The notes under the pieces were generated by a model. It saw nothing but the letters and a program-made list of their open reading frames with translations. It did not search any database and was not told where the DNA came from. A stretch of DNA of 64,000 nt, taken from positions 87,501-151,500 of the forward strand of contig NZ_CP009170.1 of NCBI RefSeq assembly GCF_000763575.1. Reading direction: 5' to 3'. Numbering within the stretch: position 1 is the first letter of the stretch; every line of letters begins with the position of its first letter. Positions 2,883-52,272 of this stretch are shown one piece after another. The position numbers and the translations under genes were made by a program. This DNA is from Thermoanaerobacter kivui. Its GTDB lineage: Bacteria; Bacillota; Thermoanaerobacteria; Thermoanaerobacterales; Thermoanaerobacteraceae.

Positions 2883-2904
2883 TTTAAGCTAAGGGGGAAG
2901 ATGT

Positions 2905-3921: not shown

Positions 3922-3926
3922 TTTTG

Positions 3927-3945: not shown

Positions 3946-3976
3946 TATGAAATTTTGATAAATAGGAGGGAAATGT

Positions 3977-4330: not shown

Positions 4331-4342
4331 GAGGTTAGAAAA

Positions 4343-4766
4343 ATGAAAAAGGTATTGTTTGCAGTGTTCAATTCTCCTGTAGGAAGTATATGGATAAATG
4401 AGGCATTTAGAAGTGCATTTGGAATGTATGGAGAAGACTTAGAACCTACTGTGCTTTTTGTAAATGAAGCAGTTCTAGCAGTTAGAACGAGTTGTAAACC
4501 TTTTCTGTCTCTCTTTCAATTTTTTAAAAGATTCAGTTCTAGCAGTTAGAACGAGTTGTAAACCTGAGCTGATTGGATGCTTGCCATTATCCATGACCTT
4601 TAAGTATATAGAAAAATATAAGACAGAAGTTTATGCGATAAAAGAAGACATTGAAAAATATAACATACAACAAAGTGAAATTGATCCTCATTGGGATTTA
4701 AAAACAATAAAGGCAGAAGAACTGCCAGAATTTGTACATTCTTTTGACAAGGTAGTATTCTTTTAG
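4343..4766 (+). pseudogene. DsrF/TusC-like gene disrupted by a 64-bp insertion with a 31-bp duplication
   Basis: The first part (from ATG 4343, after a TAGGAGG ribosome site) encodes a DsrE-fold N-terminus ending in VLAVRTSCKP and then runs into unrelated sequence and a stop at 4547-4549. The missing half continues in another frame from 4565 to 4766. Removing 64 bases (4501-4564) restores one continuous frame of about 120 residues, the normal size of a TusC/DsrF subunit, and joins the sequence as CKP-ELIGC. Because 64 is not a multiple of three, the frame is lost. A short N-terminal peptide and an internally started C-terminal fragment (TTG 4581) could still be made. A sequencing or assembly fault is possible but the clean duplication argues for a real event. 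Confidence 0.85.
4470..4564 (+). repeat. 31-bp direct repeat flanking a 33-bp insert
   Basis: The 31 bases at 4470-4500 recur exactly at 4534-4564, separated by 33 bases (4501-4533) that are T-rich and unlike the gene. The arrangement resembles a target-site duplication around a tiny insert or a template-switch event inside the DsrF-like gene. With only two copies and coding content, it is not a CRISPR. Confidence 0.9.
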
Positions 4767-4777
4767 GAGGGAAAAAT

Positions 4778-5056
4778 ATGGCATTAATAATTGTTAAGAA
4801 AAGTCCTGAGAATAAGATTTCGGAATTTTTATTAAAACTTGCTTTGCCTCATGATAAAGTTATTTTCATACAAGATGGGGTCATCTTTGCCATTGAAAAG
4901 AATTTGAAGACAATGGTAAAAGATGGGGTAGAACTCTTTGCACTTAAGGAAGATTTTATTGCAAGAGGATTTGAAGAGAGTGAAAGCCAAATTCCTTTGA
5001 TAGATTATGAGGGATGGGCTGATCTTATAGAAAGGGATGAGAAAATAATTTCTTAG
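4778..5056 (+). CDS. DsrH/TusB-like sulfur relay protein
   Basis: A 92-residue protein of the size and fold pattern of DsrH/TusB, the third subunit of the TusBCD/DsrEFH complex. The N-terminal strand ALIIVKKSP and the segment KVIFIQDGVIFAI fit the family. I see no cysteine in the protein, so the active cysteine found in some DsrH proteins is absent. The start follows a TTAGGAGGG ribosome site. It sits 11 bases after the broken DsrF-like gene and just before the lipoamide dehydrogenase. Assignment rests on length, context and weak pattern, so it is less certain than for the DsrE-like neighbour. Confidence 0.7.
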   Translation: MALIIVKKSPENKISEFLLKLALPHDKVIFIQDGVIFAIEKNLKTMVKDGVELFALKEDFIARGFEESESQIPLIDYEGWADLIERDEKIIS

Positions 5057-5091
5057 AGGTATGATTGGCTATCACGCTGGAGGTATGTCAA

Positions 5092-37814: not shown

Positions 37815-37828
37815 TTTGAATTAAAAGT

Positions 37829-37858
37829 AGTGTCTTTTTAAATGGCACTTTTTTTTTA
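37829..37858 (+). terminator. Rho-independent terminator after the FtsH-like gene
   Basis: AGTGTC (37829-37834) pairs with GGCACT (37844-37849, one G-U pair) and is followed by a run of ten Ts. Confidence 0.75.
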
Positions 37859-37874
37859 TTGTTTCTTTTATTAA

Positions 37875-37902
37875 TGCACTTTGCGCATAAAAGCATAGAC
37901 TT
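37875..37902. repeat. Fragment of the terminator-associated palindromic element
   Basis: About 28 bases (TGCACTTTGCGCATAAAAGC then ATAGACTT) closely match the inner arm found at 61890-61920 and, reversed, at 53340-53370. Only this fragment is present, directly after the T run of the preceding terminator. Confidence 0.6.
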
Positions 37903-37907
37903 TTTCT

Positions 37908-37986
37908 TGTCATTCTGAGGCAAAGCCATGAGCCGAAGCCCTGAGCATAAGCGAAGGGGCAGCGAAGGACCTATGCGAAGAATCTC
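37908..37986. repeat. Dispersed GC-richer repeat segment ('gtcattctgag...gaagaatctc')
   Basis: A 79-base block begins GTCATTCTGAGG and ends GAAGAATCTC, with several short internal CGAAG-type repeats. Sequences with these ends are widely dispersed in bacterial genomes. It is richer in G and C than its surroundings. The region 37815-38514 otherwise holds only a terminator, a repeat fragment, a promoter and a decayed gene start. Confidence 0.5.
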
Positions 37987-38124
37987 ATACTTAAGAGGAA
38001 TATTTAATAAGTTTATGTTTTTATTTATGCCATAGTGCAAGCTGTACGAGGAGAGTGTGTGCAATTGTTAAAATAATAACAATAAAAATTATCATTATTT
38101 AAAGATAAATATTCTTTGTTGTTA

Positions 38125-38153
38125 TTGACATTAAGGGTATAAAACTTTATAAT
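38125..38153 (+). promoter_or_regulatory. Consensus sigma-A promoter of the hydrogenase operon
   Basis: TTGACA (38125-38130) and TATAAT (38148-38153) are both perfect and are separated by 17 bases. Transcription would run through about 350 bases before the first intact gene of the hydrogenase operon. Confidence 0.88.
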
Positions 38154-38250
38154 CAATTTAGGAAGGTTGCTATTAAATCAAAAAGGTGTATACAAAATGT
38201 ATTACAATATGTCATGTAACTATTTTAAATTGTCTGAAAGAGGTGTTTTT

Positions 38251-38514
38251 ATGCAGTCAAATATTGCTACTTAATATCGTCTTTCCAATTGTTGCTGGAA
38301 TTATTACGTTTTTATAAATAAACCTTTAGTGAGAAAGGAGGTTGTTGCTGTATCTTTAACCCGTAATCGTTTTAACAACGCTTTTGATAATAAGAATTTA
38401 GAAGAAAAGAAAGTTTCTCCCACAAGGCAGCCTAGGTTCTTTTATTCCGAGTTTTGCGGTATCAGGTATTTAAACTATTAGGTTTTAAAATTTTGAAAGT
38501 GGGGAGGCAGTTAA
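38251..38514 (+). pseudogene. Decayed 5' region of the antiporter-like hydrogenase subunit gene
   Basis: An ATG at 38251 follows GAGGTG. A +1/-1 shift soon leads to the hydrophobic LLNIVFPIVAGIITF, and one missing T then gives INKPLVRKEVVAVSL, the look of an antiporter-like subunit N-terminus. Later bases include IPSFAVSGI in another frame and several stops. So the first few hundred bases of the gene seem present only as scraps with frameshifts and an internal loss, before the intact frame starts at 38515. Confidence 0.55.
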
Positions 38515-40866
38515 ATGACATCCTTTATACCCATAATGTTAGTTTTATGTATGATATGGACCTTCTTATTCGACCTTGGGGCTCTTTTGCAAAAGGATAT
38601 AAGAAAAATGCTGATTTTTTCAAACATTGCTGGCCTTGGTTTTATTGGGGCGGGCTATTTGCTTGAAGAAGGCGGCAAGTTGCTGGGAACTCAGGAGTTA
38701 CTCAATTATGTTATTATGCGTACTTTGATGTTTTTAACAATTGCATCTTTAGCAGGCAAGGCAAAGAATTTTGATATTGATAGTTTAAAAGGTAGAGGCA
38801 CCATTTTAAAAGGTCAAGGGATTTTGTATACCCTTGCTGTTGTGGCTGTTCTTGGAGTTTCACCTATAAAGAGCTTAACAGCAAGACTTGATATATTTTA
38901 CAATATGATAAAGGAAAGCGACATAATGGCAGCAGTAATAGGCTTTTTAGCAGTAATCATAGAATTTTGTTATTTTTTTAGAAGTGTGCAAAAGATTATG
39001 TTTGCGCCTTATGAAGGCGAAAAAGCTGACTTAAGGGATAATTTTTTAAGCTACTTTGTAGGAGCTTTAGCCATTTTAGCTTGTGTATTTAATCATGAGG
39101 TGCAGCATTATATACAGGATTTTGTTGGCGTAAATGCAGAATCTTTATCGGAACCATGGCCGAGGGAAATTGTAACCTTAGCTATATCAGCTTTTGTTGT
39201 ATATACAGTGGCAAAATTCAGCAAATCATTTGGTGGAATTTTAGCAGTAGCTGCAACAGCTTATGCAGCAATGGATATCACGAAAGAGTATATTAATAAC
39301 ATCTCTTCAATAAAATATCTTATAGCTACTTTGATGCTCTGGCTGATAGTTCTTGTTGTGGTCTATATAATGGGTACTATAAGTAAAGAGAAAATAAGTG
39401 GACTTCTCTTTTTTATCATCTATTTAAGCGCCTCTATTATAGGTCTTGTTAAAGCTGAAAGCTCAATAGAGTTTTATGAATTTTGGGAATTGTTCACTAT
39501 CTCTTCATATTTTATGGCAGTAATGCCATCAACCAAAGAAGCAAGAAAATCATCTTTGACGTATTTGTTAGCGGCGGTTTTTGTTGGTTATGCTATGTTT
39601 ACTGGTTTTGTTGTTTTGTCTAAAAATGCTGGCAGTTTTGAATTTGACAAAATGGGAGAATATTTAACATCTCCTGCTTCGATAACAGTGGCAGTTTTTG
39701 CTTTGCTTGCCATAATTGCAGGTCTTGGTCTAAAAGCAGAGTTGTTCCCGCTTTATGGATGGGTGCCAGGTTTATACGCAAGTGCTGATTCATCTGTTTC
39801 AGCCCTCTTTGCCGGTGTAATGAGTAAGGCTGGTATTATAGGTTTGATAACCGTTTTATATGTTCTTTTAAAAGATTTTGAAAAAGCCGATAGTGTTTAT
39901 ATGCTTGTTGCATGGTTGGGTGCGTTTACCATGCTTTTCGGGACAATGAGGGCTTTGATGGAGAGCGATGCAAAAAGGCTTTTAGCATATTGCTCAATCA
40001 GCCAAATGGGATATGTCATAACTGCATTGGCTATTAAAAATTCGTCTCTTGGATTTTCAGCCGGTATATACCATGCTGTGAACCATATGATGTTCAAAAC
40101 ATTGCTTTTCCTTTGCGTTGGAGCTGTTGTCCTAAAAGCCGGAACATCTGACATGAATAAACTTGGTGGCTTAGCAAGGAAAATGCCTGTTACGACAGTG
40201 TCTGCATTGATAGGGGCTTTTGCAGCAGCCGGATTACCTCTGTTTTCAGGTTTTAACTCTAAATGGATGATTTATCAGGCACTTATTTCAGAAAAAAATC
40301 CGAATTATGTTGTGATAGGCATAATAGCAATGGTTGCAAGCGCTGGTACATTGCTTTATATGCTTAAATTCATTCATTCTATATTTTTTGGAAGATTACC
40401 CGAAAACTTGCAAAATATTAAAGAAGATAGCTTGTTAACAAAACTTTCAATGCTTATATTAGCATTTGTAAATATTGTTCTCGGCATAGCGCCAAATGTT
40501 ATTCTTAAGCCTATTTCTGATGGAATGCGTGAACTTGGATTAGAAGGCGTGTCAGATTTTAGTATAGTTAAATCATTAGAAACTTATAATACTGGAGTGC
40601 TCATTTTTGTACTTGTTGTTGGTATTTTAATCGCACTCTTTCTTCTCAGTATTAAGCCTAAGAAAGAAATACGCAAAACAGTACCGGTTTTTGCCGGTGG
40701 TGATGAGACGAAATACAATAATATTACAAATCAAGAGATGCAGATTGCAGGTATCAATTTATTTGATAGTATAGTTTACGTAATTAAAGAATTTTTCGAT
40801 GCATGGTCGTTTATAGATAAGATCTTTTTACCCATTCGTAAGCTGCTCAATGCAGGGGAAAATTAA
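38515..40866 (+). CDS. Ech-type hydrogenase proton-antiporter-like membrane subunit (EchA/HycC/NuoL family), N-terminally truncated
   Basis: A 783-residue protein with about 20 membrane segments. Residues 1-170 match only the second half of one antiporter module (ALLQKDIRKMLIFSNIAGLGFIGAG). A complete second module follows from about 240: FAGVMSKAGIIGLITVLYVL, ALMESDAKRLLAYCSISQMG, YHAVNHMMFKTLLFL and PLFSGFNSKWMI. This suggests a protein built of two fused antiporter modules that lost its start. ATG 38515 has a good GGGGAGG site 7 bases upstream, so the shortened protein can be made. It would couple electron flow to ion pumping. Whether the truncated form works is unknown. Confidence 0.82.
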   Translation: MTSFIPIMLVLCMIWTFLFDLGALLQKDIRKMLIFSNIAGLGFIGAGYLLEEGGKLLGTQELLNYVIMRTLMFLTIASLAGKAKNFDIDSLKGRGTILKGQGILYTLAVVAVLGVSPIKSLTARLDIFYNMIKESDIMAAVIGFLAVIIEFCYFFRSVQKIMFAPYEGEKADLRDNFLSYFVGALAILACVFNHEVQHYIQDFVGVNAESLSEPWPREIVTLAISAFVVYTVAKFSKSFGGILAVAATAYAAMDITKEYINNISSIKYLIATLMLWLIVLVVVYIMGTISKEKISGLLFFIIYLSASIIGLVKAESSIEFYEFWELFTISSYFMAVMPSTKEARKSSLTYLLAAVFVGYAMFTGFVVLSKNAGSFEFDKMGEYLTSPASITVAVFALLAIIAGLGLKAELFPLYGWVPGLYASADSSVSALFAGVMSKAGIIGLITVLYVLLKDFEKADSVYMLVAWLGAFTMLFGTMRALMESDAKRLLAYCSISQMGYVITALAIKNSSLGFSAGIYHAVNHMMFKTLLFLCVGAVVLKAGTSDMNKLGGLARKMPVTTVSALIGAFAAAGLPLFSGFNSKWMIYQALISEKNPNYVVIGIIAMVASAGTLLYMLKFIHSIFFGRLPENLQNIKEDSLLTKLSMLILAFVNIVLGIAPNVILKPISDGMRELGLEGVSDFSIVKSLETYNTGVLIFVLVVGILIALFLLSIKPKKEIRKTVPVFAGGDETKYNNITNQEMQIAGINLFDSIVYVIKEFFDAWSFIDKIFLPIRKLLNAGEN

Positions 40867-40880
40867 AGGAGGGATTTGAA

Positions 40881-41843
40881 TTGTCGGAAATACTTATAAA
40901 ATTATTAAATGTGCTAATTTTCCCCGGATTTTTGTATACAGCAATTGTAGGGCTTTTATTCTATGGCATTCACATGAAGATATTGGCAAAGATACAGAGA
41001 AGGATAGGACCTCCTATATCTCAGCCATTTAAAGATTTTGCAAAGTTAATGCTAAAAGATACCTTAGAAATAGAAGGAGCGACAGGCTGGCTTTTTAAAT
41101 TAGCACCTCTTATAATGATAGTAGCTATTGTTATAGCAATGATGTTTGTACCGGTTGGTATGTCAGCAGTTTTTACAGGACCTGGTGCCATTATAGTGCT
41201 TCTATATTTAATTTCTGCAGCGGCTGTTGGTATTATACTTGGAGGTTCTGCTTCTTCATCGCCTTATTCTGTAGTGGGAGCTTCAAGAGAACTTGCTTTG
41301 ATGCTTTCTTATGATATATCGCTTGTCGTAATTTTTGTTACCGTTGCATTAAAAGCAGGGATGGGCTTAGGTTTGACAGCAGACTTTTCACTTATGGATA
41401 TAGTTAAGTATCAATTAGAACATGGAGCTTTTATAACTAATTGGGTGATGATACCCGCATTCCTTGCGTTTATGATGATAATACCCGCAAACTTAGGATT
41501 ACCTCCTTTTGATGTGGTAGAGGCAGAAACAGAGATTGCAGGAGGACCAATGGCTGAATATACAGGGAAAAGACTCGGACTTTTTTATTTGGCAAACGCT
41601 ATGAAAATAGTGTTGCTTACATCAACAATTGTTGCTATGTTCTTACCTTCGCCTACAACTGGGAATATCTTTTTGAATGCGGTCTGTTTTACAATCAAAG
41701 CATGGCTTATATACTTTATAGGTGGTACATTGGTTGCTGCTTTTACTGGTAGAAGAAGAATTGATCAGGCTGTGAGATTTTACTTAACAGTTCCCCTCGG
41801 ACTTTCCATTTTAAGTTTTGCGCTTGTTCTATTAGGGCTTTAA
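40881..41843 (+). CDS. Ech-type hydrogenase membrane subunit (EchB/HycD/NuoH family)
   Basis: A 320-residue integral membrane protein with about eight hydrophobic segments. The conserved Q-site-like charged loop is seen in KIQRRIGPPISQPFKDFAKL and the late DVVEAETEIAGGPMAEYTG; both are typical of NuoH/HycD. It anchors the hydrogenase module in the membrane and shapes the ion path. It starts with TTG after AAAGGAGGG. It lies 14 bases after the antiporter gene and just before the small subunit. Confidence 0.92.
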   Translation: MSEILIKLLNVLIFPGFLYTAIVGLLFYGIHMKILAKIQRRIGPPISQPFKDFAKLMLKDTLEIEGATGWLFKLAPLIMIVAIVIAMMFVPVGMSAVFTGPGAIIVLLYLISAAAVGIILGGSASSSPYSVVGASRELALMLSYDISLVVIFVTVALKAGMGLGLTADFSLMDIVKYQLEHGAFITNWVMIPAFLAFMMIIPANLGLPPFDVVEAETEIAGGPMAEYTGKRLGLFYLANAMKIVLLTSTIVAMFLPSPTTGNIFLNAVCFTIKAWLIYFIGGTLVAAFTGRRRIDQAVRFYLTVPLGLSILSFALVLLGL

Positions 41844-41858
41844 AGGGAGGTGAGTTTA

Positions 41859-42329
41859 TTGAGCATTAAAGAAAAGCTGGAAGATCTTGCTGCAGGTTCA
41901 CCATGGGTTTACCGATTAAATACCGGTTCGTGTAATGGCTGTGATGTAGAGGTGGCTACTACCGTCTTATGTCCAAGGTATGATTTGTCAAGATTTGGTG
42001 TAAGACTGGTTGGAAGTCCTAAGCATGCTGATATTGTTCTGATTACAGGGCCTGTTACCGAAAGATGTAAAGATGCTGTCTTGAGGATATTAGAACAGGT
42101 GCCTGAACCAAGGGTAATTTTGACCATAGGGAATTGTCCAGCCTCGGGTAATGTTTATCAAGGTAGCTATTCCTTAGCGGGTCCTGTGAGTGAGTTAATA
42201 CCTGTTGATGTAAGCGTACTTGGCTGTCTACCAAGTCCCTGGGCAATAATTGATGGAGTTGTAAAGGCAAAGGAGATTTGGAAAAAGAAACTCAGAGAAT
42301 ATCAAATCAAGGAAAGAAAAGAGGGGTAA
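41859..42329 (+). CDS. Ech-type [NiFe] hydrogenase small subunit (EchC/HycG/NuoB family)
   Basis: About 156 residues. The four cysteines of the proximal [4Fe-4S] cluster are in GSCNGCDVE, GNCPASG and GCLPSP, as in group 4 hydrogenases and NuoB. It hands electrons to the NiFe site of the large subunit. TTG 41859 is chosen since GGGAGG lies 8 bases upstream; GTG 41850 overlaps that site. The next gene begins right after the stop codon. Confidence 0.93.
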   Translation: MSIKEKLEDLAAGSPWVYRLNTGSCNGCDVEVATTVLCPRYDLSRFGVRLVGSPKHADIVLITGPVTERCKDAVLRILEQVPEPRVILTIGNCPASGNVYQGSYSLAGPVSELIPVDVSVLGCLPSPWAIIDGVVKAKEIWKKKLREYQIKERKEG

Positions 42330-42860
42330 ATGATGTTAAAGACCATTGGAGCGGTTTTATCAGCTCTAAAAAAAGGCAGAGCTACGGTAAATTATCCATA
42401 TGAGCCTATAACTCCGCCACAAAATTATAGAGGAAAAGTGCAGTATGATTCTACAAAGTGTATTGGATGTGGTACATGTCAATATGTTTGTGGAGGAAAG
42501 GCTATAAAGATAGATACTTATAATGACCATTTTGATTATATTTTGTGGGATGCTGCATGCACAAGATGTGGTATGTGTGTGGAGTTTTGTCCGACAGGCG
42601 CATTGACGATGTCAGAAAATCTGCACAATGCTATATTAGGGGAAGAGATTTTAGAAAGAATTCATTACAAAAACATACCTTATGTGCGCTGTGATATATG
42701 CAAAAAATACATCAAACCTTTACCTGATGTTGTATATCAGGAAATTTTAAAAGGCAATAATTATGCCTTTAAGGAGAATGAGCATATATGTCCAGATTGC
42801 AGGAGAAAACTTCATGCAGAGAAATTATTTAAAGGTATAAATACTTTGGTCAATAGATAA
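42330..42860 (+). CDS. Hydrogenase 2x[4Fe-4S] ferredoxin-like subunit (EchF/HycF type) with C-terminal zinc-ribbon-like tail
   Basis: A 176-residue protein. Two cluster motifs are CIGCGTCQYVCGGKA and CTRCGMCVEFCPTGA. A C-terminal extension has CDICKKYI and CPDCRRKL, likely a metal ribbon not found in the shortest EchF proteins. It passes electrons toward the small subunit. Its ATG follows GAGGGG and directly abuts the small subunit stop; a second ATG follows at once. Confidence 0.9.
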   Translation: MMLKTIGAVLSALKKGRATVNYPYEPITPPQNYRGKVQYDSTKCIGCGTCQYVCGGKAIKIDTYNDHFDYILWDAACTRCGMCVEFCPTGALTMSENLHNAILGEEILERIHYKNIPYVRCDICKKYIKPLPDVVYQEILKGNNYAFKENEHICPDCRRKLHAEKLFKGINTLVNR

Positions 42861-42881
42861 ATGTAGAGGAGGTAATTATAG

Positions 42882-43373
42882 ATGTCTAAAAAAGTATTGT
42901 TTGAGCCTAACATATGTGTAGGCTGTGAAGAGTGTGTAAGGGCATGCGCAAGATGGCATGAAGGAGAGACAAATGCTTATGTAGAACAAGTAGGTGTTTA
43001 TAACATTCCTATGAGATGTATGCATTGTGCTGATGCACCCTGTGCCCAGATCTGTCCTGTTAAGGCGATTTCTATCAATGAAGATGGCATTGTGCTTGTG
43101 GATAAGAGCAAGTGTATAGGCTGCGGAAGCTGTTTGCTTGTTTGTCCTTTTGGTATACCAAGGATTGACCTTTCCTCAAAGATTATGAGAAAATGTGATC
43201 TTTGTATTGACAGACTGAAAGAAGGCAAGCAACCGGCTTGTGTTCAATTTTGTAGCGTAGGGGCATTGCAACTTGTTGATCCTGAGGAGATAGAAAAGAG
43301 AAGAAGACAGAAAGTTGCTTCAAAGCTTAATGAACTTCAGAATCAACCTAATGTTCTTCCGGAGGTGAAATAA
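42882..43373 (+). CDS. CooF/HycB-like polyferredoxin electron-transfer subunit
   Basis: A 163-residue protein with four [4Fe-4S] cluster motif sets, starting CVGCEECVRACARWH and CMHCADAPCAQICPVKA, then CIGCGSCLLVCPFG and CDLCIDRLK...CVQFC. This is the pattern of HycB/CooF/DmsB-type subunits, which link a hydrogenase to an electron-donating enzyme such as formate or CO dehydrogenase. No such enzyme gene is in the window. The standard six-gene Ech does not include it. AGAGGAGG precedes the ATG. Confidence 0.9.
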   Translation: MSKKVLFEPNICVGCEECVRACARWHEGETNAYVEQVGVYNIPMRCMHCADAPCAQICPVKAISINEDGIVLVDKSKCIGCGSCLLVCPFGIPRIDLSSKIMRKCDLCIDRLKEGKQPACVQFCSVGALQLVDPEEIEKRRRQKVASKLNELQNQPNVLPEVK

Positions 43374-43375
43374 CA

Positions 43376-43837
43376 ATGGTAAAATCAAAACTTTTGCCGC
43401 TAGATAAGATACTTTCTCAACTTGATAAGAGTGATAGGATTGCAATAGTCGCTTGTAACAACTGCGCAAGGGTTTGTGGAGTTGGTGGAAAAGAAAATGC
43501 TGAGAAGATGGAAGAGATATTGGATAAAGAGGGTTATAATGTTGTAAGTGTTTGTGATGTTATTGCAGCTTGTAATGCTTATTATTATGATGATGCAAAT
43601 ATCAGCCCTGCAGCAAATACAATTTTGGTGTTGAGTTGTCCATCAGGTATAAGACTTGTGAAGAGGTTGTTTACAGATAAAAAAGTTATTACTACAACAG
43701 AAATAGAAGGCGGTATAATTGCTTCACCAACTTTAGGAAGATACAAAGTTGTAGAAGTCTTTACTGGTAAAGAAGCTTTAAAAGGAAAAGAATACAAGAT
43801 TTATACTGATGTTGAATTGAAAGACACAAAGTTATAA
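43376..43837 (+). CDS. MetV-like cysteine-rich protein (MTHFR C-terminal-domain family), copy 1
   Basis: A 153-residue soluble protein. The N-terminal VACNNCARVCGVGGKENAEKM and later VVSVCDVIAACNAY and LVLSCPSGIR resemble MetV, the small iron-sulfur/zinc partner of methylene-tetrahydrofolate reductase MetF in acetogens. No metF is present. It starts two bases after the polyferredoxin stop, inside the hydrogenase operon. It is about 150 residues, shorter than MetV (about 200). It may link the hydrogenase to an outside redox partner. The family call is by pattern recognition and needs a profile search. Confidence 0.65.
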   Translation: MVKSKLLPLDKILSQLDKSDRIAIVACNNCARVCGVGGKENAEKMEEILDKEGYNVVSVCDVIAACNAYYYDDANISPAANTILVLSCPSGIRLVKRLFTDKKVITTTEIEGGIIASPTLGRYKVVEVFTGKEALKGKEYKIYTDVELKDTKL

Positions 43838-43855
43838 TAAAGGGGGAATGAAAAT

Positions 43856-44359
43856 ATGGAAATTGTTGTAAGAACAAAGACTTATGATGACCTCAAGGCA
43901 TGGTTAAAACCCGATGATAAGATAATTCTTATGAGCTGTAATGTATGTGCAAAAGGCTGTGGTGTTGGCGGAGAAAGAATACTTGAAAGATTGCAGAAGA
44001 AGCTTGAAAAGGACGGTTTTAATGTGATATATAGCACATTAGCTGGTTTTACATGCAACAGAGATATTTTAGAGGATTTGAAAACATGTCCTTTTACAGC
44101 TAAGTATTTCGAAGAGGCTACAGTGATTATTCCTATTGCATGTCATGATGGTATAGAGAATGTTGAGCATGTATTTACAGACAAAAGAGTATTTCATGGC
44201 TATAAGTCCTTGGGTGTAGGATCTGTTTCTGTAAAAGAAGGTATAAAATTAGAAATACCTTTTGATGCAAGCCTCATTGAAAAGCTTGGTATTGGTGAAG
44301 ATGGAATACCAATAAAGGATGCTGCTGCAAAACTTGGCTACTATACAGGTCCATTTTGA
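43856..44359 (+). CDS. MetV-like cysteine-rich protein, copy 2
   Basis: A 167-residue paralogue of the preceding protein. It shares the CxxCxxxCGVGGE core (MSCNVCAKGCGVGGERILERL), a mid cysteine (GFTCNRDIL, TCPFTAKYFEE) and the CHDGIENVE segment where copy 1 has CPSGIR. The two differ enough to be an old tandem duplication with separate roles. Its ATG follows AAAGGGGG. The 160 bases after it hold no gene that I can see. Confidence 0.65.
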   Translation: MEIVVRTKTYDDLKAWLKPDDKIILMSCNVCAKGCGVGGERILERLQKKLEKDGFNVIYSTLAGFTCNRDILEDLKTCPFTAKYFEEATVIIPIACHDGIENVEHVFTDKRVFHGYKSLGVGSVSVKEGIKLEIPFDASLIEKLGIGEDGIPIKDAAAKLGYYTGPF

Positions 44360-44528
44360 TATTATTAAATTTTAAAATGAATTTGAAACTGCTGAGTGTG
44401 CACTGGTGGATAGCTGTGTGTTATGCGGTAAATAATATTGTTTGGTGGTCATCACACGATGAAGCAGAAAGTTTTCATTTTTGTTAAAGGGTATTTGACA
44501 GTCCCGTTGTAAAAAAGGAGTGATGGAT

Positions 44529-45041
44529 TTGTACCCTAATTTAAAAGAAGCTTTGTTAAAGATTGTTGGGAAAGACGTAGAAGTTTTTGAGAGCAAGGGA
44601 AGTTATTGGGCGGTTCTTGAAGATGTCACAAAACTTAGAGAAATCGCAAAATGGATTAAAGCTATTCCTGGTAGGTGTGTTACAATTTCTCCTTTGATGA
44701 GAGATGAAATAAAAGAGCTTATATATATATTTGATTTTTATGAAGGTCCTACGTTTAATTTAAAAGTTAGATTTAAAAATGGAGAAGAAATTGATTCAAT
44801 AAGTGATATTTTAAAAAGTGCCTATTTTACCGAGTTGGAGTTGGCGGAAACGTGGGCTGTTCCTTATAGGAATTTGCCACAGATACGATGGGGAAGATGG
44901 ATATTAGAAGATACCATTGAGAAAGGTGTATTATATGCAGGACTATCCGAGACATTAAGTCCTGAAACCGAGACAAAAATGTGGCAAAAAATAAGAGAGA
45001 ATATAAAAATAAATGAGGAAAAAGGTGAAACCAATGGCTAA
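44529..45041 (+). CDS. Ech-type hydrogenase subunit (EchD/NuoC-like)
   Basis: About 170 residues. The C-terminal half (YFTELELAETWAVPYRNLP, RWGRWILEDTIEKGVLYAGL) and place directly before the large subunit fit the EchD/NuoC-type subunit, often poorly conserved. The start is uncertain: AAAGGAG ends at 44520, so TTG 44529 (8 bases on) fits this genome's spacing better than ATG 44523. Its end overlaps the large subunit start by 8 bases. Confidence 0.72.
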   Translation: MYPNLKEALLKIVGKDVEVFESKGSYWAVLEDVTKLREIAKWIKAIPGRCVTISPLMRDEIKELIYIFDFYEGPTFNLKVRFKNGEEIDSISDILKSAYFTELELAETWAVPYRNLPQIRWGRWILEDTIEKGVLYAGLSETLSPETETKMWQKIRENIKINEEKGETNG

Positions 45042-46116
45042 GTATGCATTGCCTATAGGACCAATTCATCCTGCCTTGGATGAACCCTTGTATTTCCGTT
45101 TTGAGATGGAAGGGGAAACAATTAAAAATACTGAGATCATGTTTGGTCATGTTCATCGAGGTATGGAAAAGCTTGCTATGACAAATACCATCTCACAGAA
45201 CGTCATACTCTGTGAGAGGACCTGTGGTCTTTGCTCAAGCAATCATGGTCTTTCATATTGCAGAGTTATGGAGACCATAGGAGATATAAAGGTGCCAGAA
45301 AGAGCTGAATATATAAGAGTGATAACTGATGAATTGAAAAGGATAGCCTCTCATGCGTTTGCAGTTGCACTTATTGCACACGTGATAGGTTTTGATACGC
45401 TGTTTTTATACGCATTCCAAGAAAGGGAAAAAGTATTGGATTTGATAGAGGCATTTACTGGAAATCGTTTCCACACAAGTGTAAATGTAATTGGCGGGGT
45501 AAAAAGGGATATAGATGAGGAGTTGGCAAATAGGATATCTAAAGACTTAGAGGAGTTTAAGCATAGTTGGGAAAAAGTTGCTGAGATTTATTCAACAGAT
45601 CCGAATATTTTGTCAAGGACAAAAAATGTGGGTGTGCTGACTAAAGAAAAGGCTATTGAATATGGTACAATGGGACCAATTGCAAGAGCCTCTGGGATAG
45701 CATTTGATGTAAGAAAGCAGAGTCCGTATCTTGTCTATGATGAGTTGGATTTTAAGCTTATAACCGAAACAAGTGGAGATGTTTATGCAAGGACAATGGT
45801 CCGAATAAGAGAAATTTTTGAGAGCATAAATCTAATACAACAATGTATCAAGAGAATGCCTAAAGGTCCTATAAATTTAGGATTAATCCCCAGGATACCG
45901 CCAGGTGAAGCATCTGTAAGGACTGAAGCACCTCGTGGCGAGCTTATATACTATGCAAGAACAAATGGAACTCAAAACCCTGTGCTTGTAAAATGGAGGG
46001 TGCCTTCTGTTGTAAATCTGCCTTCTTTGGTTGAGATGTTTAAAGAAAACAAGATAGCAGACATACCTGTAATAGTTGCTTCTATTGATCCATGTATTTC
46101 TTGTACTGAGAGATAA
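45034..46116 (+). CDS. Ech-type [NiFe] hydrogenase large subunit (EchE/HycE/NuoD family)
   Basis: About 360 residues. The NiFe ligands are in ERTCGLCSSNHG (first CxxC) and DPCISCTER at the very C-terminus (second CxxC). The protein ends at the R of this motif, with no cleavable tail, so no processing protease is needed. It is the catalytic subunit reducing protons to hydrogen or the reverse. ATG 45034 follows AAGGTGA. It precedes hypC. Confidence 0.94.
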   Translation: MAKYALPIGPIHPALDEPLYFRFEMEGETIKNTEIMFGHVHRGMEKLAMTNTISQNVILCERTCGLCSSNHGLSYCRVMETIGDIKVPERAEYIRVITDELKRIASHAFAVALIAHVIGFDTLFLYAFQEREKVLDLIEAFTGNRFHTSVNVIGGVKRDIDEELANRISKDLEEFKHSWEKVAEIYSTDPNILSRTKNVGVLTKEKAIEYGTMGPIARASGIAFDVRKQSPYLVYDELDFKLITETSGDVYARTMVRIREIFESINLIQQCIKRMPKGPINLGLIPRIPPGEASVRTEAPRGELIYYARTNGTQNPVLVKWRVPSVVNLPSLVEMFKENKIADIPVIVASIDPCISCTER

Positions 46117-46129
46117 GAAGGTGAATAAT

Positions 46130-46348
46130 ATGTGTATTGCTGTTCCTATGAAGATTTTAAGTATAGAGAATAACAAAGCAGTTGTAGAATTAGGCGGCAT
46201 AACAAGAAAGGCGAGAATTGATTTGATACCTGACCTAAAGGTTGGGGATTATGTAATTGTTTATGCAGGTTTTGCTATTGAAAAAGTTGATGAAAAAATG
46301 GCAAAAGAAGTTCAAGAAATTTTCGATGAAATACAAGAATATGAATAA
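46130..46348 (+). CDS. hypC: Hydrogenase maturation chaperone HypC, copy 1
   Basis: A 72-residue HypC with the diagnostic N-terminal MCIAVP and the EADLGG-like KARIDLIPDLKVGDYVIVYAGFA. The N-terminal cysteine holds the Fe(CN)2CO precursor with HypD. ATG 46130 follows AAGGTGA. It lies 13 bases after the large subunit stop and is probably co-transcribed with it. A second hypC is at 50994-51236. Confidence 0.95.
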   Translation: MCIAVPMKILSIENNKAVVELGGITRKARIDLIPDLKVGDYVIVYAGFAIEKVDEKMAKEVQEIFDEIQEYE

Positions 46349-46390
46349 GCTGTTGAAAAATTATAAATAAATTAAAAAATTAAGATAAGA

Positions 46391-46421
46391 ACTCCCCACC
46401 TGATGTTTAGGGTGGGGGTAG
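46391..46421. repeat. Stem-loop resembling an IS200/IS605 end
   Basis: ACTCCCCACC (46391-46400), a loop containing TGATGTTTA, and GGGTGGGG (46410-46417) form a GC-rich stem. Hairpins of the form cccacctga...tttagggtggg are common at ends of IS200/IS605-type elements. There is no transposase nearby, so this may be a solo end or just a terminator between hypC and hypA; there is no T run. Confidence 0.4.
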
Positions 46422-46453
46422 TTTATAACATAAAAGATGGGGGATAATTTTTA

Positions 46454-46795
46454 ATGCATGAGCTGAGCATAGCTGAAAATATATTATCAATTATTACAGG
46501 AGAGGCTAAAAAATACAATTTGAAAAAGATAAAAGAGATTACCGTAAAAGCGGGTGAACTTGCTGGTATCGTTCCGGAAAACCTTATATATTGTTTTGAG
46601 ATAATCAGCAAGGGTTCTATTGCCGAAGGAGCTGAAATCAAGATTGAAAGAGTGCCTTTAAAGGTATTGTGTCTTGATTGTGGTGAAGAGTTTGTGGCAT
46701 CTTTGCCAAACATACAATGTGTTAAGTGTGGCAGCAGAAATCTCAAGATTGTTGGGGGAAAAGAATTTTTTATTGAGAGTATGGAGGGTGAATGA
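46454..46795 (+). CDS. hypA: Hydrogenase nickel incorporation protein HypA
   Basis: A 113-residue protein starting MHELSIAENIL (the nickel-binding MHE) with the zinc site CLDCGEEF...IQCVKCGSRN. It inserts nickel into the large subunit together with HypB. Its stop is one base before hypB. Both length and order are as expected. Confidence 0.95.
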   Translation: MHELSIAENILSIITGEAKKYNLKKIKEITVKAGELAGIVPENLIYCFEIISKGSIAEGAEIKIERVPLKVLCLDCGEEFVASLPNIQCVKCGSRNLKIVGGKEFFIESMEGE

Positions 46796-46796
46796 A

Positions 46797-47459
46797 ATGG
46801 GGATTAAAGTACTTCGTAATATTTTTGAGAGCAATATAAAACGCAGTGATGAGTTAAAAAAGATTTTTAAAGAAAAAGGGATATATGTTATAAATGTCAT
46901 GGGTTCGCCAGGAGCAGGAAAGACAAGTGTTATAGTTGAGATTATAAAAAGCCTCAAGGATGATTTGAGGATAGGGGTTATTGAGGCAGATTGTGAAGGT
47001 AAGTATGATGCTGAAAAGATAGATAGTATGGGGATTCCTGTTGTTCAGTTGAATTCAGAAGGGGCATGTCATATTGAGGCGGTTTCGGTTGATAAAGCTA
47101 TGAGCAATTTCCCAACTTGGGATATTGACTTGCTTTTAATTGAAAATATTGGTAACCTTGTATGTCCTGCTGGATTTGAAATAGGGGAAGATTTGAGAAT
47201 GGTTATTTTAAGTGTCCCTGAGGGAGACGATAAAGTTGCTAAATACCCTTCTATGTTTTATAGATGTGATGTTATGGTTATAAATAAGATAGACGTGAAA
47301 GACTATTTTGATTTCAATATGCAGAGGATTTTAACAGATATTCAAGGCCTTAATCCTAAAGTAGAGGTTTTTCCTGTGTCTTGCAAAACAGAATATGGTA
47401 TTGACAAGCTTTCAGCGTGGATAAAAAGAAAGGTGCTGGATAAAAAGAAATCAAATTGA
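46797..47459 (+). CDS. hypB: Hydrogenase nickel incorporation GTPase HypB
   Basis: A 221-residue G3E GTPase with P-loop MGSPGAGKTSVI, the EADCEGKYD metal/switch region and NKID guanine motif. The histidine-rich or CxxCGC N-terminal nickel stretch of some HypB proteins is lacking, so it only has the GTPase-domain metal site (the C in GACHIEA and EADC). ATG 46797 is the start; a longer frame from 46674 overlaps hypA and is not used. Confidence 0.95.
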   Translation: MGIKVLRNIFESNIKRSDELKKIFKEKGIYVINVMGSPGAGKTSVIVEIIKSLKDDLRIGVIEADCEGKYDAEKIDSMGIPVVQLNSEGACHIEAVSVDKAMSNFPTWDIDLLLIENIGNLVCPAGFEIGEDLRMVILSVPEGDDKVAKYPSMFYRCDVMVINKIDVKDYFDFNMQRILTDIQGLNPKVEVFPVSCKTEYGIDKLSAWIKRKVLDKKKSN

Positions 47460-47567
47460 AATGGATTTTGAAAATTTACTTTGAATATTCAAAATTGGTT
47501 TGTCACCTGGATTGTTAAATTTTAAGCAATCAAAAAATAAGTATGATAGTTTTCAGGAGAAATAAAA

Positions 47568-47590
47568 AAAGGGGGATTATTTTCCCCTTT
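47568..47590 (-). terminator. Terminator of the amidohydrolase gene
   Basis: On the minus strand AAAGGGG pairs with CCCCTTT across an AT loop, followed by a T run, 3 bases after the amidohydrolase stop. It converges with hypB. Confidence 0.7.
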
Positions 47591-47592
47591 GC

Positions 47593-48444
47593 TCAATCAA
47601 TGTTCTTATCACTAAAGAGTATTTTATATGCATTTTCTCCGTTGATTTTCATTTTTTCTTCTTCGGTCAGATTTGTTTTGCTCCATTCCCTGTAATACCT
47701 CGCAGGAGACAGCAGAGGAAAATCACTTCCTAGCACGACCTTATCTAATACTCCTGCCGATCTTGCAGCTTCATATACCTGAGGTTTGTAAAGATAAGGA
47801 GATGCAGCGTTGTCGTAATATACATTTTTTAAATTTTTTCGCACTTCAGGCATTAGCTCATAGAAGAAAAGGCCTCCGCCCCAATGGGCGTATATGATTG
47901 TGTTTTCGGGATTATTTACTGCGAAGAGATAGGCTTGTTCAGGTCCCATTTTTCCTTTGCCGGGATAATAGTGACCTATAAGCTCGTTGGCGTGCATGAG
48001 GATGGGGAATTTAAGTTTTTGACATACGGCCGCAAATTTTCCAATTTCATCTTGTTTGCTTATATCAACATGGACAGCATCAGGTATTATTTCACCAACG
48101 CCTTTTAATCCTGCTTCAGCACAGCGTATAAGTTCTTTTTCCATTTCTGGGTGATTAGGGGGGACGATGGCAAAACCGATAAATCGGTCAGGATATCGCT
48201 TAACAACATCAATGATGTAATCATTAGCTTCCTTAGACATCCCCATATCTAAACATGAAAAGCCGAAAATTACAGATTTGTCTATACCTGTCTTATCCAT
48301 TTCCATTAGCACATCTTCTGCTGTGGCAAATTTAGCTTTAGGGTTCGAATGAAGGAGTTTAAAATGCGCGTCCCTTTCTATGTTCTTCTTAATGTCTTTT
48401 ATAAAATCAGGTGACAGGATATGCACATGCATGTCTATTTTCAT
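47593..48444 (-). CDS. Amidohydrolase 2 family (TIM-barrel) metal-dependent hydrolase or decarboxylase
   Basis: A 283-residue protein of the ACMSD/amidohydrolase-2 superfamily. The metal ligands fit: MHVHI at the N-terminus, ILMHANELIGHY in the middle and LGSDFPLL late. Substrates in the family are varied (decarboxylases, hydratases, lactonases). It is transcribed opposite to the hydrogenase genes, has its own extended -10 promoter (TGGTATAAT, minus strand 48488-48480) and splits hypAB from hypFCDE. Its link to hydrogenase maturation is unclear and probably accidental. Confidence 0.82.
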   Translation of the reverse strand: MKIDMHVHILSPDFIKDIKKNIERDAHFKLLHSNPKAKFATAEDVLMEMDKTGIDKSVIFGFSCLDMGMSKEANDYIIDVVKRYPDRFIGFAIVPPNHPEMEKELIRCAEAGLKGVGEIIPDAVHVDISKQDEIGKFAAVCQKLKFPILMHANELIGHYYPGKGKMGPEQAYLFAVNNPENTIIYAHWGGGLFFYELMPEVRKNLKNVYYDNAASPYLYKPQVYEAARSAGVLDKVVLGSDFPLLSPARYYREWSKTNLTEEEKMKINGENAYKILFSDKNID

Positions 48445-48563
48445 CGCAAAATCTCCACCTTTTTTATTTTTTTTTTATAATTATACCACAAAAAGATTGC
48501 AATAATAATAATTAGCAATAAAAAAGCCTGACCATTTTGAAAACCCCCTTTTTTTTTTTAAGA

Positions 48564-48621
48564 TTAAGTGTTAAACTTATATTATAGAGATTCTACTTTC
48601 TGTTAATATTTTAACACTTAA
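48564..48621. promoter_or_regulatory. 12-bp inverted repeat in the amidohydrolase-hypF interval
   Basis: TTAAGTGTTAAA (48564-48575) and its exact reverse complement (48610-48621) are 34 bases apart. They lie upstream of hypF and could be a regulator binding site or a stem. The rest of the 290-base interval shows only AT-rich sequence and a GGAGGG ribosome site for hypF. Confidence 0.4.
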
Positions 48622-48735
48622 ATTTTATCATAAAAAGGGTAATTTCCATTATGATGGAATACAAGCTTTGAATCCAGATGCACCAATCTTTTAAGTTTCT
48701 GCAAGGACTGGAGAAGGCTTTGGAGGGTTTGCAAA

Positions 48736-50991
48736 ATGGTTAGAGGAACAGTACGAAAAATACAGACAAAACAAATAGAAATATCTGGTATTGTACAGGG
48801 CGTAGGTTTTCGCCCTTTTGTATTTACACTTGCAAAGAAGTATCATTTAGGAGGCATAGTCTATAACACCTCTTCAGGTGTTTATATAGAAGTAGAAGGG
48901 GAGGAGGAAAATGTCAACAGTTTTATAAAAGAATTAAAAAATAATCCTCCTCCACTTGCTGTTATAGATGAGGTAAAAGTAAAAGATTTAGAAGTTAAGG
49001 GTTATGAGGATTTCGAAATTATATCGAGTCAAGAAAATGATGGATTTGTACCTGTATCTCCTGATATGGGGGTATGCGACGACTGTTTAAGAGAAATGAG
49101 AGACCCAAATGACAGAAGATATAGGTATCCTTTTATAAATTGCACTAATTGTGGTCCAAGGTTTTCTATAATAGAGGATATTCCTTATGACAGACCCAAA
49201 ACTTCTATGAAGGTATTTCCTATGTGCGAAAAATGCGAAAAAGAGTACAATGACCCCAATGACAGGAGATTTCACGCGCAGCCGGTAGCCTGTTTTGACT
49301 GCGGGCCTAAGTTGGAATTTGTAGGAGCTGATTGTCAGCAAGATGAAATAAAATGTGCTATAGATTCCCTTAAAAAAGGCAAAATTGTCGCTATTAAGGG
49401 AATAGGGGGTTTTCACTTAGCAGTAAATGCCCTTAGCGATGAAGCTGTCTCTACCTTGAGAAGTCGAAAAAAGAGGTATGGAAAGCCTTTCGCTGTCATG
49501 ATGAAAGACATAGAACAGGTAGAAAAGTATTGTGTTGTAAGTGAAGAAGAAAAAAAGCTTCTTTTAAGCCAGAGAAGGCCGATTGTGCTTTTAAAGAAAA
49601 AAGGAGAAAAACTTGCGAAGGGCATTGCTGATGGCTTAGATACTTTGGGAGTAATACTTCCATATGCTCCTATACATTATCTTTTAATGGACCAAATAGA
49701 CTTTCCTATTGTGATGACAAGTGGGAATGTCAGTGAAGAGCCACTGTGCAAAGACAATGAAGAGGCTATAAAAAATTTAAAAGACATAGCAGATGTTTTT
49801 CTTTTAAACAATAGGGATATAGTAAATAGAATAGATGATTCAGTTACTTCTTTTAATGCGGGTTATGAGAGGATTATAAGAAGGGCGAGAGGTTATGCTC
49901 CTCAACCTATTTTGCTTAAAAAAGATACTAAGGTCAATGTGCTGGCGGTAGGAGGTTTTTACAAAAATACTTTTTGCTTTACCAAAGGGCATTATGCCTT
50001 CATAAGTCATCACATAGGAGATTTGGACAATGAAAAGACTTTTGAGTATTACAAAGAAGAAATAGAAAAATATAAACGGCTTTTTAAAGTGACACCTGAG
50101 GTAGTAGCTCATGACATGCATAAAGGATATCTTTCGACGCAGTATGCTTTATTGTGTGGTTTGCCTCTTGTTGAGGTTCAACACCATCATGCTCATATCG
50201 CTAGCTGTATGGCGGAGTACAACATTACAGATAAAGTAATAGGGATAGCCTATGACGGTACTGGATATGGTACTGACGGTAATATATGGGGTGCAGAATT
50301 TTTTATATGCGACTTAAAAGATTTTATAAGAGTAGGGCATCTCGAGTATAAACCGCTTCCAGGCGGTGAACTGGCAATAAAAAAGATATACAGAACAGCT
50401 TTGGGATTTATTTCAGAAGATATAGGAAGTTATGGAGATTTTTTGGAAAGGTTTGACCAAAAAGAGGTTGAGATAATTTTGAAACAAATTAAGAGAAAAA
50501 TTAATACTCCTTATGTGTCCAGCATGGGCAGGTTTTTTGATGCTGCTTCTTCTCTACTTGGATTAAGAGATGAGGTGCTCTTTGAAGGACAAGGTGCTAT
50601 GGAGCTGGAAAGTTTGATAGTTGACACTGACAGCTTTTATGAATTTGAAATTTCTCATAAAGATGGCTATATAATAAACACAGATATAATATTACAGCAA
50701 TTGTACAATGACTATAAAAAAAGAGTAGACAAAAGAATAATTGCAGCAAAATTTCATAATTCCATTGTAGAATTTACCCATTATTTGGCTTTGGAATTGA
50801 GAAAAGAATTTGGAATTAACAAAGTAGTATTGAGTGGTGGCAGTTTTCAAAATAGGTATTTGCTAAAAAAACTATTATCAAAACTTAGTGATTCAGGCTT
50901 TGAGGCTTATTCTAACAGTAGAGTTCCTTGTAACGATGGGGGAATTTCGTTAGGGCAAGCTGTTATTGCAAATAAAAAACTGGAGGGATAA
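48736..50991 (+). CDS. hypF: Carbamoyltransferase HypF
   Basis: A 751-residue multidomain protein. An acylphosphatase domain (GIVQGVGFRPFVF, residues 15-100), two zinc-finger sets (CDDCLREM and CTNCGPRF; CEKCEKEY and CFDCGPK), a YrdC/Sua5 domain (about 200-390, KGIGGFHLAVNA) and a Kae1-like C-terminal domain (VQHHHAHIASCMAEYN) are all in order. HypF makes the thiocarbamate that becomes CN ligands on the Fe of the NiFe site. ATG 48736 follows GGAGGG. It heads hypFCDE. Confidence 0.97.
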   Translation: MVRGTVRKIQTKQIEISGIVQGVGFRPFVFTLAKKYHLGGIVYNTSSGVYIEVEGEEENVNSFIKELKNNPPPLAVIDEVKVKDLEVKGYEDFEIISSQENDGFVPVSPDMGVCDDCLREMRDPNDRRYRYPFINCTNCGPRFSIIEDIPYDRPKTSMKVFPMCEKCEKEYNDPNDRRFHAQPVACFDCGPKLEFVGADCQQDEIKCAIDSLKKGKIVAIKGIGGFHLAVNALSDEAVSTLRSRKKRYGKPFAVMMKDIEQVEKYCVVSEEEKKLLLSQRRPIVLLKKKGEKLAKGIADGLDTLGVILPYAPIHYLLMDQIDFPIVMTSGNVSEEPLCKDNEEAIKNLKDIADVFLLNNRDIVNRIDDSVTSFNAGYERIIRRARGYAPQPILLKKDTKVNVLAVGGFYKNTFCFTKGHYAFISHHIGDLDNEKTFEYYKEEIEKYKRLFKVTPEVVAHDMHKGYLSTQYALLCGLPLVEVQHHHAHIASCMAEYNITDKVIGIAYDGTGYGTDGNIWGAEFFICDLKDFIRVGHLEYKPLPGGELAIKKIYRTALGFISEDIGSYGDFLERFDQKEVEIILKQIKRKINTPYVSSMGRFFDAASSLLGLRDEVLFEGQGAMELESLIVDTDSFYEFEISHKDGYIINTDIILQQLYNDYKKRVDKRIIAAKFHNSIVEFTHYLALELRKEFGINKVVLSGGSFQNRYLLKKLLSKLSDSGFEAYSNSRVPCNDGGISLGQAVIANKKLEG

Positions 50992-50993
50992 TC

Positions 50994-51236
50994 ATGTGTA
51001 TTGCTGTGCCATCAAAAGCGATAAAAATTGAAGGTAAAGTTGCAGAGACAGAGCTTGGTGGCGTCATAAGAAGGGTATCCATAGAAATGGTTCCAGATGT
51101 TAAAGTTGGAGATTATGTTATGGTTTATGCGGGACTTGCCATAAGCGTTGTAGACAAGGAAGAAGCGGAAATGGAAAGGGAGCTTTGGGAAGAGGTTACG
51201 GAGGTTTTAAAGGATGCAGCAAACCGAAATGATTAA
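50994..51236 (+). CDS. hypC: Hydrogenase maturation chaperone HypC, copy 2
   Basis: An 80-residue HypC paralogue with the MCIAVPSKA N-terminus and KVGDYVMVYAGLA. It starts two bases after hypF and overlaps hypD by 23 bases. Together with the copy at 46130-46348, it gives two HypCs: one in the Ech operon and one with hypDE, perhaps specific to different steps or hydrogenases. Confidence 0.94.
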   Translation: MCIAVPSKAIKIEGKVAETELGGVIRRVSIEMVPDVKVGDYVMVYAGLAISVVDKEEAEMERELWEEVTEVLKDAANRND

Positions 51237-52272
51237 AAAAGCTAAAGAAATAATTGATATTTTAAATCCGGGTATGCAATTTAACATAATGGAAGTCTGC
51301 GGCTCCCACACAATGGCTATTTCAAAATACGGTTTAAGGCAAATTCTGCCTAAAAATATAAGGCTTATATCAGGGCCAGGATGTCCTGTGTGTGTGACAG
51401 CGCAGAATGAAATAGACAGTGTTATAGAACTTGCTAATAAAAATGTTGTAATTGCCACTTTTGGAGACCTCATAAGGGTTCCGGGTAACAAGTCATCACT
51501 GCAGGCAGAAAGAGCAGCTGGCAAAGATGTAAAAGTGTTTTATTCGCCTCTTGATGCTTTAGAATACGCTGAGAAAAATCCAAGTAAAGAGGTAGTTTTT
51601 ATAGGGATAGGATTTGAAACCACTATTCCCACTGTGGCTGTCACTATTAAAGAGGCAGAAGAGAAAAACATAAAAAATTACAGCGTTTACTGCCTCCATA
51701 AGACAATGCCTGAGGCTTTAAGAGCACTTCTTGAAGGTGGTTCAAAGGTACAAGGCTTTTTGCTTCCAGGTCACGTAAGTGCAATAACGGGAAGCAAAAT
51801 ATATAAATTTCTTGCTGAGGAATTTGGTGTCGGCGGTGTAATCTCAGGATTTGAAGCATTGGATATTTTAATGAGCATAATAATGCTTCTTAAAAATTAC
51901 AAAAGTCCTTCAATCGAAATTCAATATAAGAGAGTGGTAAGAGAAGAAGGAAATGTTGAAGCGCAGAAGATAATTGAGGAAATTTTTGAGCCTTGTGACA
52001 GCACGTGGAGAGGTCTTGGGGAGATTAAAGGTTCAGGACTTAAGATAAAAGACAAGTATAAAGACTTTGATGCGGCGTTAAAATTTGATATAAAACCAAT
52101 TGGAGAAGAAATCGAGATAAAAGGTTGCCGATGTGGAGATGTTTTAAAAGGAAATATCTATCCCAACGAATGTCCTCTCTTTGGGAGAGTGTGTACTTCT
52201 GAAAATCCTGTGGGACCTTGTATGGTTTCTTCAGAGGGTTCTTGTGCAGCTTTTTATAAGTACGGTGCTTAA
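51214..52272 (+). CDS. hypD: Hydrogenase maturation protein HypD
   Basis: A 352-residue protein. The Fe-cyanide assembly motif CGSHT, the GPGCPVC motif (ISGPGCPVCVTAQ), and the [4Fe-4S] ligands in CRCGDVLKGN, PNECPLFGRVC and GPCMVSSEGSCAA are present. It is the scaffold for Fe(CN)2CO with HypC. ATG 51214 follows GGAGG by 9 bases and overlaps hypC. Confidence 0.97.
   Translation: MQQTEMIKKAKEIIDILNPGMQFNIMEVCGSHTMAISKYGLRQILPKNIRLISGPGCPVCVTAQNEIDSVIELANKNVVIATFGDLIRVPGNKSSLQAERAAGKDVKVFYSPLDALEYAEKNPSKEVVFIGIGFETTIPTVAVTIKEAEEKNIKNYSVYCLHKTMPEALRALLEGGSKVQGFLLPGHVSAITGSKIYKFLAEEFGVGGVISGFEALDILMSIIMLLKNYKSPSIEIQYKRVVREEGNVEAQKIIEEIFEPCDSTWRGLGEIKGSGLKIKDKYKDFDAALKFDIKPIGEEIEIKGCRCGDVLKGNIYPNECPLFGRVCTSENPVGPCMVSSEGSCAAFYKYGA

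Follow-up and report, generated by a model that had tools for sequence, protein, structure and literature searches.

How do acetogens with an Ech-type hydrogenase couple the Wood-Ljungdahl pathway to the pumping of protons? This question is central to their energy metabolism, and the locus analysed here raises it anew, as a hydrogenase operon of the thermophilic acetogen Thermoanaerobacter kivui carries three genes that the six-subunit Ech of its relatives lacks. The window, i.e. the whole stretch of 64,000 nucleotides that we analysed, which spans positions 87,501-151,500 of the chromosome, contains nine open reading frames in the order A-B-C-F-HycB1-orf1-orf2-D-E (Table 1). An earlier, sequence-only reading of this DNA had described a polyferredoxin and two MetV-like proteins between the Ech1F and Ech1D genes, and these reading frames exist as described. 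A published mutation in ech1C (position 129,729, CTA to CCA, L124P) falls on a CTA codon of Ech1C at window position 42229, which identifies the operon as the published Ech1 cluster of T. kivui (TKV_c01230-01310); the locus is this very cluster, without any difference.

The suggestion of a new hydrogenase type is hence not supported: Ech1 has been classed in group 4c together with CO-oxidising hydrogenases (PMC9356269), and Hess et al. reported in 2014 that both additional genes encode small iron-sulfur proteins similar to the N-terminus of MetV, the small subunit of type II methylene-THF reductase, with 20-23% identity and no counterparts in the Ech complexes known at the time (PMC4320612). 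Frolov et al. found the Ech1 cluster in Aceticella autotrophica as well in 2023, such genes having gone unnoticed in other hydrogenase clusters (PMC10213532), and a complex of Ech and MetVF was proposed for T. kivui by Oppinger et al. and by Katsyv et al. in 2021 (PMC8760232, PMC8578170). Both the MetV likeness of the pair and the idea of an Ech-MetVF complex are thus already known. What we add from sequence comparison is a homology that spans the entire N-terminal domain of MetV but not its DUF5981 part, a set of four invariant cysteines with a variable third motif cysteine, a family separate from MetV, its distribution in the class and its occurrence next to NuoE- and NuoF-like genes in a distant genome.

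Table 1 Features of the Ech1 locus (positions in the window)
Feature	Position	Strand	Basis
Promoter-like site, sigma-70 type, TTGACA-17-TATAAT	38125..38153	+	12/12 match, consensus only
Ech1A, antiporter-like membrane subunit, 783 aa	38515..40866	+	PF00361 5.5e-57
Ech1B, NuoH-like membrane subunit	40881..41843	+	PF00146 3.4e-62
Ech1C, small hydrogenase subunit, NuoB-like	41850..42329	+	PF01058 6.5e-24
Ech1F, HycF-like two-cluster subunit, C-terminal CxxC/CxxC part	42330..42860	+	NCBIfam
HycB1, HycB/CooF-type polyferredoxin, 163 aa	42882..43373	+	PF13247 (Fer4_11) 4.3e-25; 16 Cys
orf1 (TKV_c01280), MetV-N-like predicted [4Fe-4S] protein, 153 aa	43376..43837	+	homology, invariant Cys, pLDDT 82.5
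orf2 (TKV_c01290), MetV-N-like predicted [4Fe-4S] protein with own C-terminal tail, 167 aa	43856..44359	+	homology, invariant Cys, pLDDT 85.3
Ech1D, NuoC-like subunit	44520..45041	+	PF00329 E 0.0012, below cut-off
Ech1E, catalytic NiFe subunit	45013..46116	+	PF00346 2.6e-78, PF00374 1e-10
hypC, hypA, hypB, hypF, hypC, hypD, downstream maturation genes	46076..52272	+	names by likeness

All six core Ech subunits are present, with domain matches for A, B, C, E and F and a weak one for D, which carries this name in the literature (PMC4320612). Both Ni-binding CxxC motifs of Ech1E are intact (RTCGLC and DPCISC). The top NCBIfam match of Ech1F is the iron-sulfur subunit of formate hydrogenlyase (E 5.7e-28), and the cysteines of HycB1 are sufficient for four [4Fe-4S] clusters. 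HycB1 is separated from orf1 by 2 bp and orf1 from orf2 by 18 bp, while the 160 bp in front of Ech1D contain no stable RNA fold (z -0.12) and no Rfam family. The 450 bp upstream of ech1A, which were replaced in published promoter-swap strains (PMC12724272), should include the promoter-like site; a terminator-like hairpin, recognised by consensus match only, lies at 46393-46418. Neither a formate dehydrogenase nor a CO dehydrogenase is encoded among the reading frames of the Ech1 operon, and the published loci fdhF (c19990), acsA (c20100) and cooS (c08080) of T. kivui are located elsewhere (PMC4320612). The absence of metF from the window, as claimed in the sequence-only reading, was borne out: the sole PF02219 match in the T. 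kivui genome is at 1,913,313, with metV at about 1,914,231-1,914,836, and orf1 and orf2 are therefore not adjacent to metF.

What kind of proteins are orf1 and orf2? Comparison of a profile of the pair family (7 sequences) with one of 27 MetVs by hhalign gave a probability of 99.2 and an E-value of 8.6e-20 over residues 1-122, so that the likeness to MetV is not due to chance, and on this alignment we regard both proteins as homologous to the N-terminal domain of MetV over its full length. Family profiles, proposed earlier in the form of an MTHFR_C model, proved uninformative, as neither protein matched any Pfam or NCBIfam family. The reason is that PF12225 (DUF5981), the only MetV-specific Pfam model, spans residues 109-202 of T. 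kivui MetV and thereby models only the C-terminal half, which is absent from orf1 and orf2 (no PF12225 match by Pfam).

Both proteins carry the motif CNxCA(R/K)xCGVGG, in agreement with the CxxCxxxCGVGG core noted before, but the third cysteine of this core turned out to be variable. In all 40 sequences compared, MetVs included, four cysteines are invariant (C27, C30, C66 and C88 in orf1; C28, C31, C67 and C96 in orf2), whereas the remaining sequence is only about 20-40% identical. The third cysteine of CxxCxxxC is replaced by alanine in the orf1 of a distant Bacillota genome (G188, see below), is missing in one MetV and is a serine in Aceticella orf1 (L009 10571-11032, CNDCARVSGVGG), which makes it unlikely to be an essential cluster ligand. 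Judging from conservation, the ligand set is likely to consist of the CxxC pair and the two distant cysteines rather than of a CxxCxxxC triplet, and the four invariant residues offer clear targets for mutation. AlphaFold models of orf1 and orf2 are confident in their core and, together with fold searches, predict a Rossmann-like alpha/beta domain with the cysteines at strand ends. The best fold matches, none of them a clear relative, were Dph2, a 4Fe-4S enzyme, for orf1 (VIA Z 9.7) and lobes of periplasmic binding proteins for orf2 (VIA Z 9.2), neither of which we used to assign a function; Foldseek gave no match to the two models at E <= 0.001, and a PDB sequence search with orf1, orf2, MetV and both profiles returned neither a relative nor a MetV structure.

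In the neighbourhood survey that had been proposed, 2 of the 37 genomes in the class to which T. kivui belongs carried the pair, T. kivui itself and a genome (G011) that we take to be Aceticella on account of its gene content and published identities. AcsB, our mark for the Wood-Ljungdahl pathway, was found in three of the 37; both pair carriers belong to these and also possess MetV, while in the remaining one (G022) MetV is present and EchE gave no match. EchE homologues as such are widespread (33 of 37 genomes). Aceticella shares all nine genes and their order with T. kivui Ech1 at 70-90% identity; orf2 (84%) and orf1 (70%) can be compared with MetV (60%) and MetF (70%) of the same two genomes. 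Its Ech1 lies 15 kb from the Wood-Ljungdahl cluster on the same strand. As an observation on this region (L009/L010, G011:C1:2146000-2184000), Ech1, hypA/B/D, acsA with a CooF-like gene and the complete Wood-Ljungdahl cluster including metVF are all found on one strand in a stretch of about 35 kb.

Three complete genomes of non-acetogenic relatives (L094-L096) harbour a plain six-gene Ech in the order A-B-C-D-E-F, without HycB, orf1 and orf2, in the very slot of Ech1, flanked by an FtsH-like AAA gene on one side and the hyp genes on the other (window 36333-52272). Two further loci (L097, L098) have the same Ech-hyp neighbourhood, and the hyp order was recovered in relatives by sequence search. 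The core subunits of these Thermoanaerobacter- and Thermoanaerobacterium-type Ech complexes correspond to those of Ech1, their EchE being 41-45% identical to Ech1E. In a quick tree with long branches, 27 EchE sequences of the plain type form a clade apart from Ech1E. Ech1 hence stands where an Ech is usually found, but it differs from that Ech by more than three inserted genes, and by this sequence comparison Ech1E is not the orthologue of the EchE that relatives have at this site.

Outside the class, a distantly related pair was found in one further genome. In the genome G188, a member of the Bacillota from another class, tandem genes orf1' and orf2' (with 36% identity to orf1 and 38% to orf2, respectively) directly follow NuoE-like and NuoF-like genes, and orf2' carries a fused 2Fe-2S domain that has only three of the four customary cysteines. 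This operon lies at L045 (G188:C160) 2243-5677, and the contig ends 100 bp past the pair, just after the start of a new gene. MetF is present elsewhere in this genome, but neither MetV nor AcsB was matched, which indicates that this family does not depend on methylene-THF reductase. The same genome encodes an Ech-like large subunit of 555 aa (L100/L050, G188:C95) that gave no match to either of the Ni-binding CxxC motifs and is thus probably not a hydrogenase. Two overlapping samples of the phylum, each of 398 genomes and one restricted to a completeness of >= 99%, yielded no other carrier. A scan of 84,980 species genomes for close relatives, a method that needs exact short peptides and missed Aceticella and G188 so that its silence means little, returned only L013, a single-domain protein from a Pacearchaeota metagenome-assembled genome. 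It scores 119 bits against orf1 and orf2, compared to 70 bits at most for MetVs. This free-standing, MetV-N-like protein of 127 aa (9998-10381) has all four conserved cysteines and is located about 3 kb from 2-oxoacid:ferredoxin oxidoreductase genes. Another candidate, L014, was rejected, as here the pattern occurs by chance in an unrelated protein of the FAD type. No pair was found in the viral contigs searched, and a plasmid search gave one weak, unannotated match.

HycB- and CooF-type proteins are known to link group 4 hydrogenases to soluble enzymes, as in the formate and CO hydrogenlyases. With HycB1 and Ech1F, Ech1 is a group-4 NiFe hydrogenase of hydrogenlyase-like build, composed of a membrane arm, a NiFe core, HycB1 and orf1/orf2. 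Since HycB1 is directly followed by two MetV-N proteins, and since domains of this type are met again at the contacts of MetF with electron sources, in MetV itself as well as in RnfC2 of the type III reductases (PMC8760232), we propose as the simplest reading that the pair may relay electrons from one to the other of HycB1 and a soluble partner. In T. kivui and Aceticella, the partner would most likely be the methylene-THF reductase MetVF, which lacks a known donor in T. kivui: the purified enzyme does not use NAD(P)H (PMC8578170). Taken together, we see about an even chance that orf1 and orf2 are a pair of [4Fe-4S] adaptors through which Ech1 is electrically connected to a soluble enzyme, most likely MetVF. 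Electrons would flow from H2 via Ech1 and MetVF to methylene-THF, a direction that we favour on account of the intact Ni site and the lack of demonstrated ferredoxin activity of Ech1 (PMC10986591, PMC12056078). Under standard conditions this transfer releases ~41 kJ/mol, as calculated from the published potentials of -414 and about -200 mV, and the membrane arm of Ech1 could pump protons in its course. If the MetV-like pair indeed joins Ech1 and MetVF, this would be the missing coupling site of T. kivui.

Several lines of evidence support MetVF as the partner: the MetV-N homology, the invariant cysteines, the tight gene order, the Ni ligands and the hydrogenlyase-like Ech1F and HycB1, but also the distribution with AcsB and MetV in the class and the proximity of Ech1 to the Wood-Ljungdahl cluster in Aceticella. 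Likewise, ech1 could not be deleted by Baum et al. in 2024 or in a 2025 study (PMC10986591, PMC12724272) and its knock-down slows growth (PMC12724272), which adds to the lack of demonstrated ferredoxin oxidation and of a MetFV donor. A precedent exists in Sporomusa ovata, whose membranes reduce methylene-THF with H2 and build up a proton gradient by means of other proteins (PMC9430772). On the other side, the pair family is not derived from the host MetV, the G188 pair occurs without MetV, and His-tagged MetFV from T. kivui was isolated as a two-subunit enzyme with no Ech subunits in the gel (PMC8578170). According to Frolov et al., T. kivui and Aceticella obtained their Wood-Ljungdahl clusters from distinct sources, whereas Ech1 was passed down by vertical inheritance (PMC10213532); a specific dock must then have survived a swap of its partner, which counts against MetVF. 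As this form of Ech1 is present in two closely related genomes only, its co-occurrence with AcsB and MetV is statistically weak. The earlier idea of docking to a C1 enzyme is sound and had been proposed in the literature, but the protein family itself is not specific for methylene-THF reductase.

Could the partner be another one? The pair might be a general adaptor of the MetV-N type, with Ech1 connected to a different soluble redox enzyme such as an NAD(P)H-flavin module, a CO dehydrogenase or a dedicated carrier. This fits to the NuoE-NuoF operon of G188 with its 2Fe-2S fusion, to the single-domain relative in Pacearchaeota, to RnfC2, in which a MetV domain is combined with an NADH module (PMC8760232), and to the group 4c assignment of Ech1. 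However, the pair is restricted in the class to genomes with AcsB and MetV, the G188 case is a single fragmented contig, and an ech2 deletion mutant fails to use CO despite an intact Ech1 (PMC10986591), which speaks against CO dehydrogenase. We therefore rate a partner other than MetVF as the less likely alternative. A reading that takes up the G188 operon, and which we advance tentatively, is that orf1 and orf2 belong to an old iron-sulfur adaptor family of its own, made up of two proteins and reused by different redox machines: together with HycB1 and MetVF it would make Ech1 a proton-pumping H2:methylene-THF oxidoreductase, and in another lineage it would connect a NuoEF-type NADH module with some further partner. 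The G188 operon indicates that the pair can serve a partner other than MetVF, and makes the question more testable.

It is improbable that orf1 and orf2 serve a purpose in structure, assembly or regulation and move no electrons in a ferredoxin-dependent Ech1. HycB1 and Ech1F alone could take electrons from ferredoxin, we found no purified Ech1 in the literature consulted and no activity has been reported for orf1 or orf2, but four cysteines that persist in 40 of 40 such divergent sequences and the missing demonstration of ferredoxin activity for Ech1 (PMC10986591) point the other way.

That the two genes arose by recent duplication of the host metV and came to lie, perhaps as relics, inside a hydrogenase operon is very improbable despite the 20-23% identity to MetV: in an unrooted tree with several long branches, the six pair members and L013 stand opposite 33 MetVs, among them those of both hosts, with a branch support of 100/99.9, which argues against copies of the host's own gene, and both proteins are conserved in Aceticella with the four cysteines kept. 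In the same tree, the orf1 sequences, three in number, form one group, and the data do not reject a corresponding clade of the three orf2 sequences (p-AU 0.36); this tree suggests that the two-protein arrangement may be older than the split from the G188 lineage.

Among known systems, formate and CO hydrogenlyase-type group 4 hydrogenases also have a dedicated HycB/CooF-type polyferredoxin and a HycF-like subunit, but the Ech1 operon contains no formate dehydrogenase or CO dehydrogenase and has the MetV-N pair in addition. MetV shares about 120 homologous residues and the same four cysteines with orf1 and orf2, which, unlike MetV, lack the DUF5981 half, lie away from metF and form a separate family. 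By its description, RnfC2 of the type III methylene-THF reductase of Acetobacterium woodii resembles the pair in having a MetV-N-type domain outside MetV and in being a proposed link between this reductase and a respiratory complex (PMC8760232), but there the domain is fused to an NADH-binding RnfC domain, whereas orf1 and orf2 are two free-standing proteins. Downstream of Ech1, a minus-strand amidohydrolase-like gene (window 47593-48444) splits the hyp cluster between hypB and hypF.
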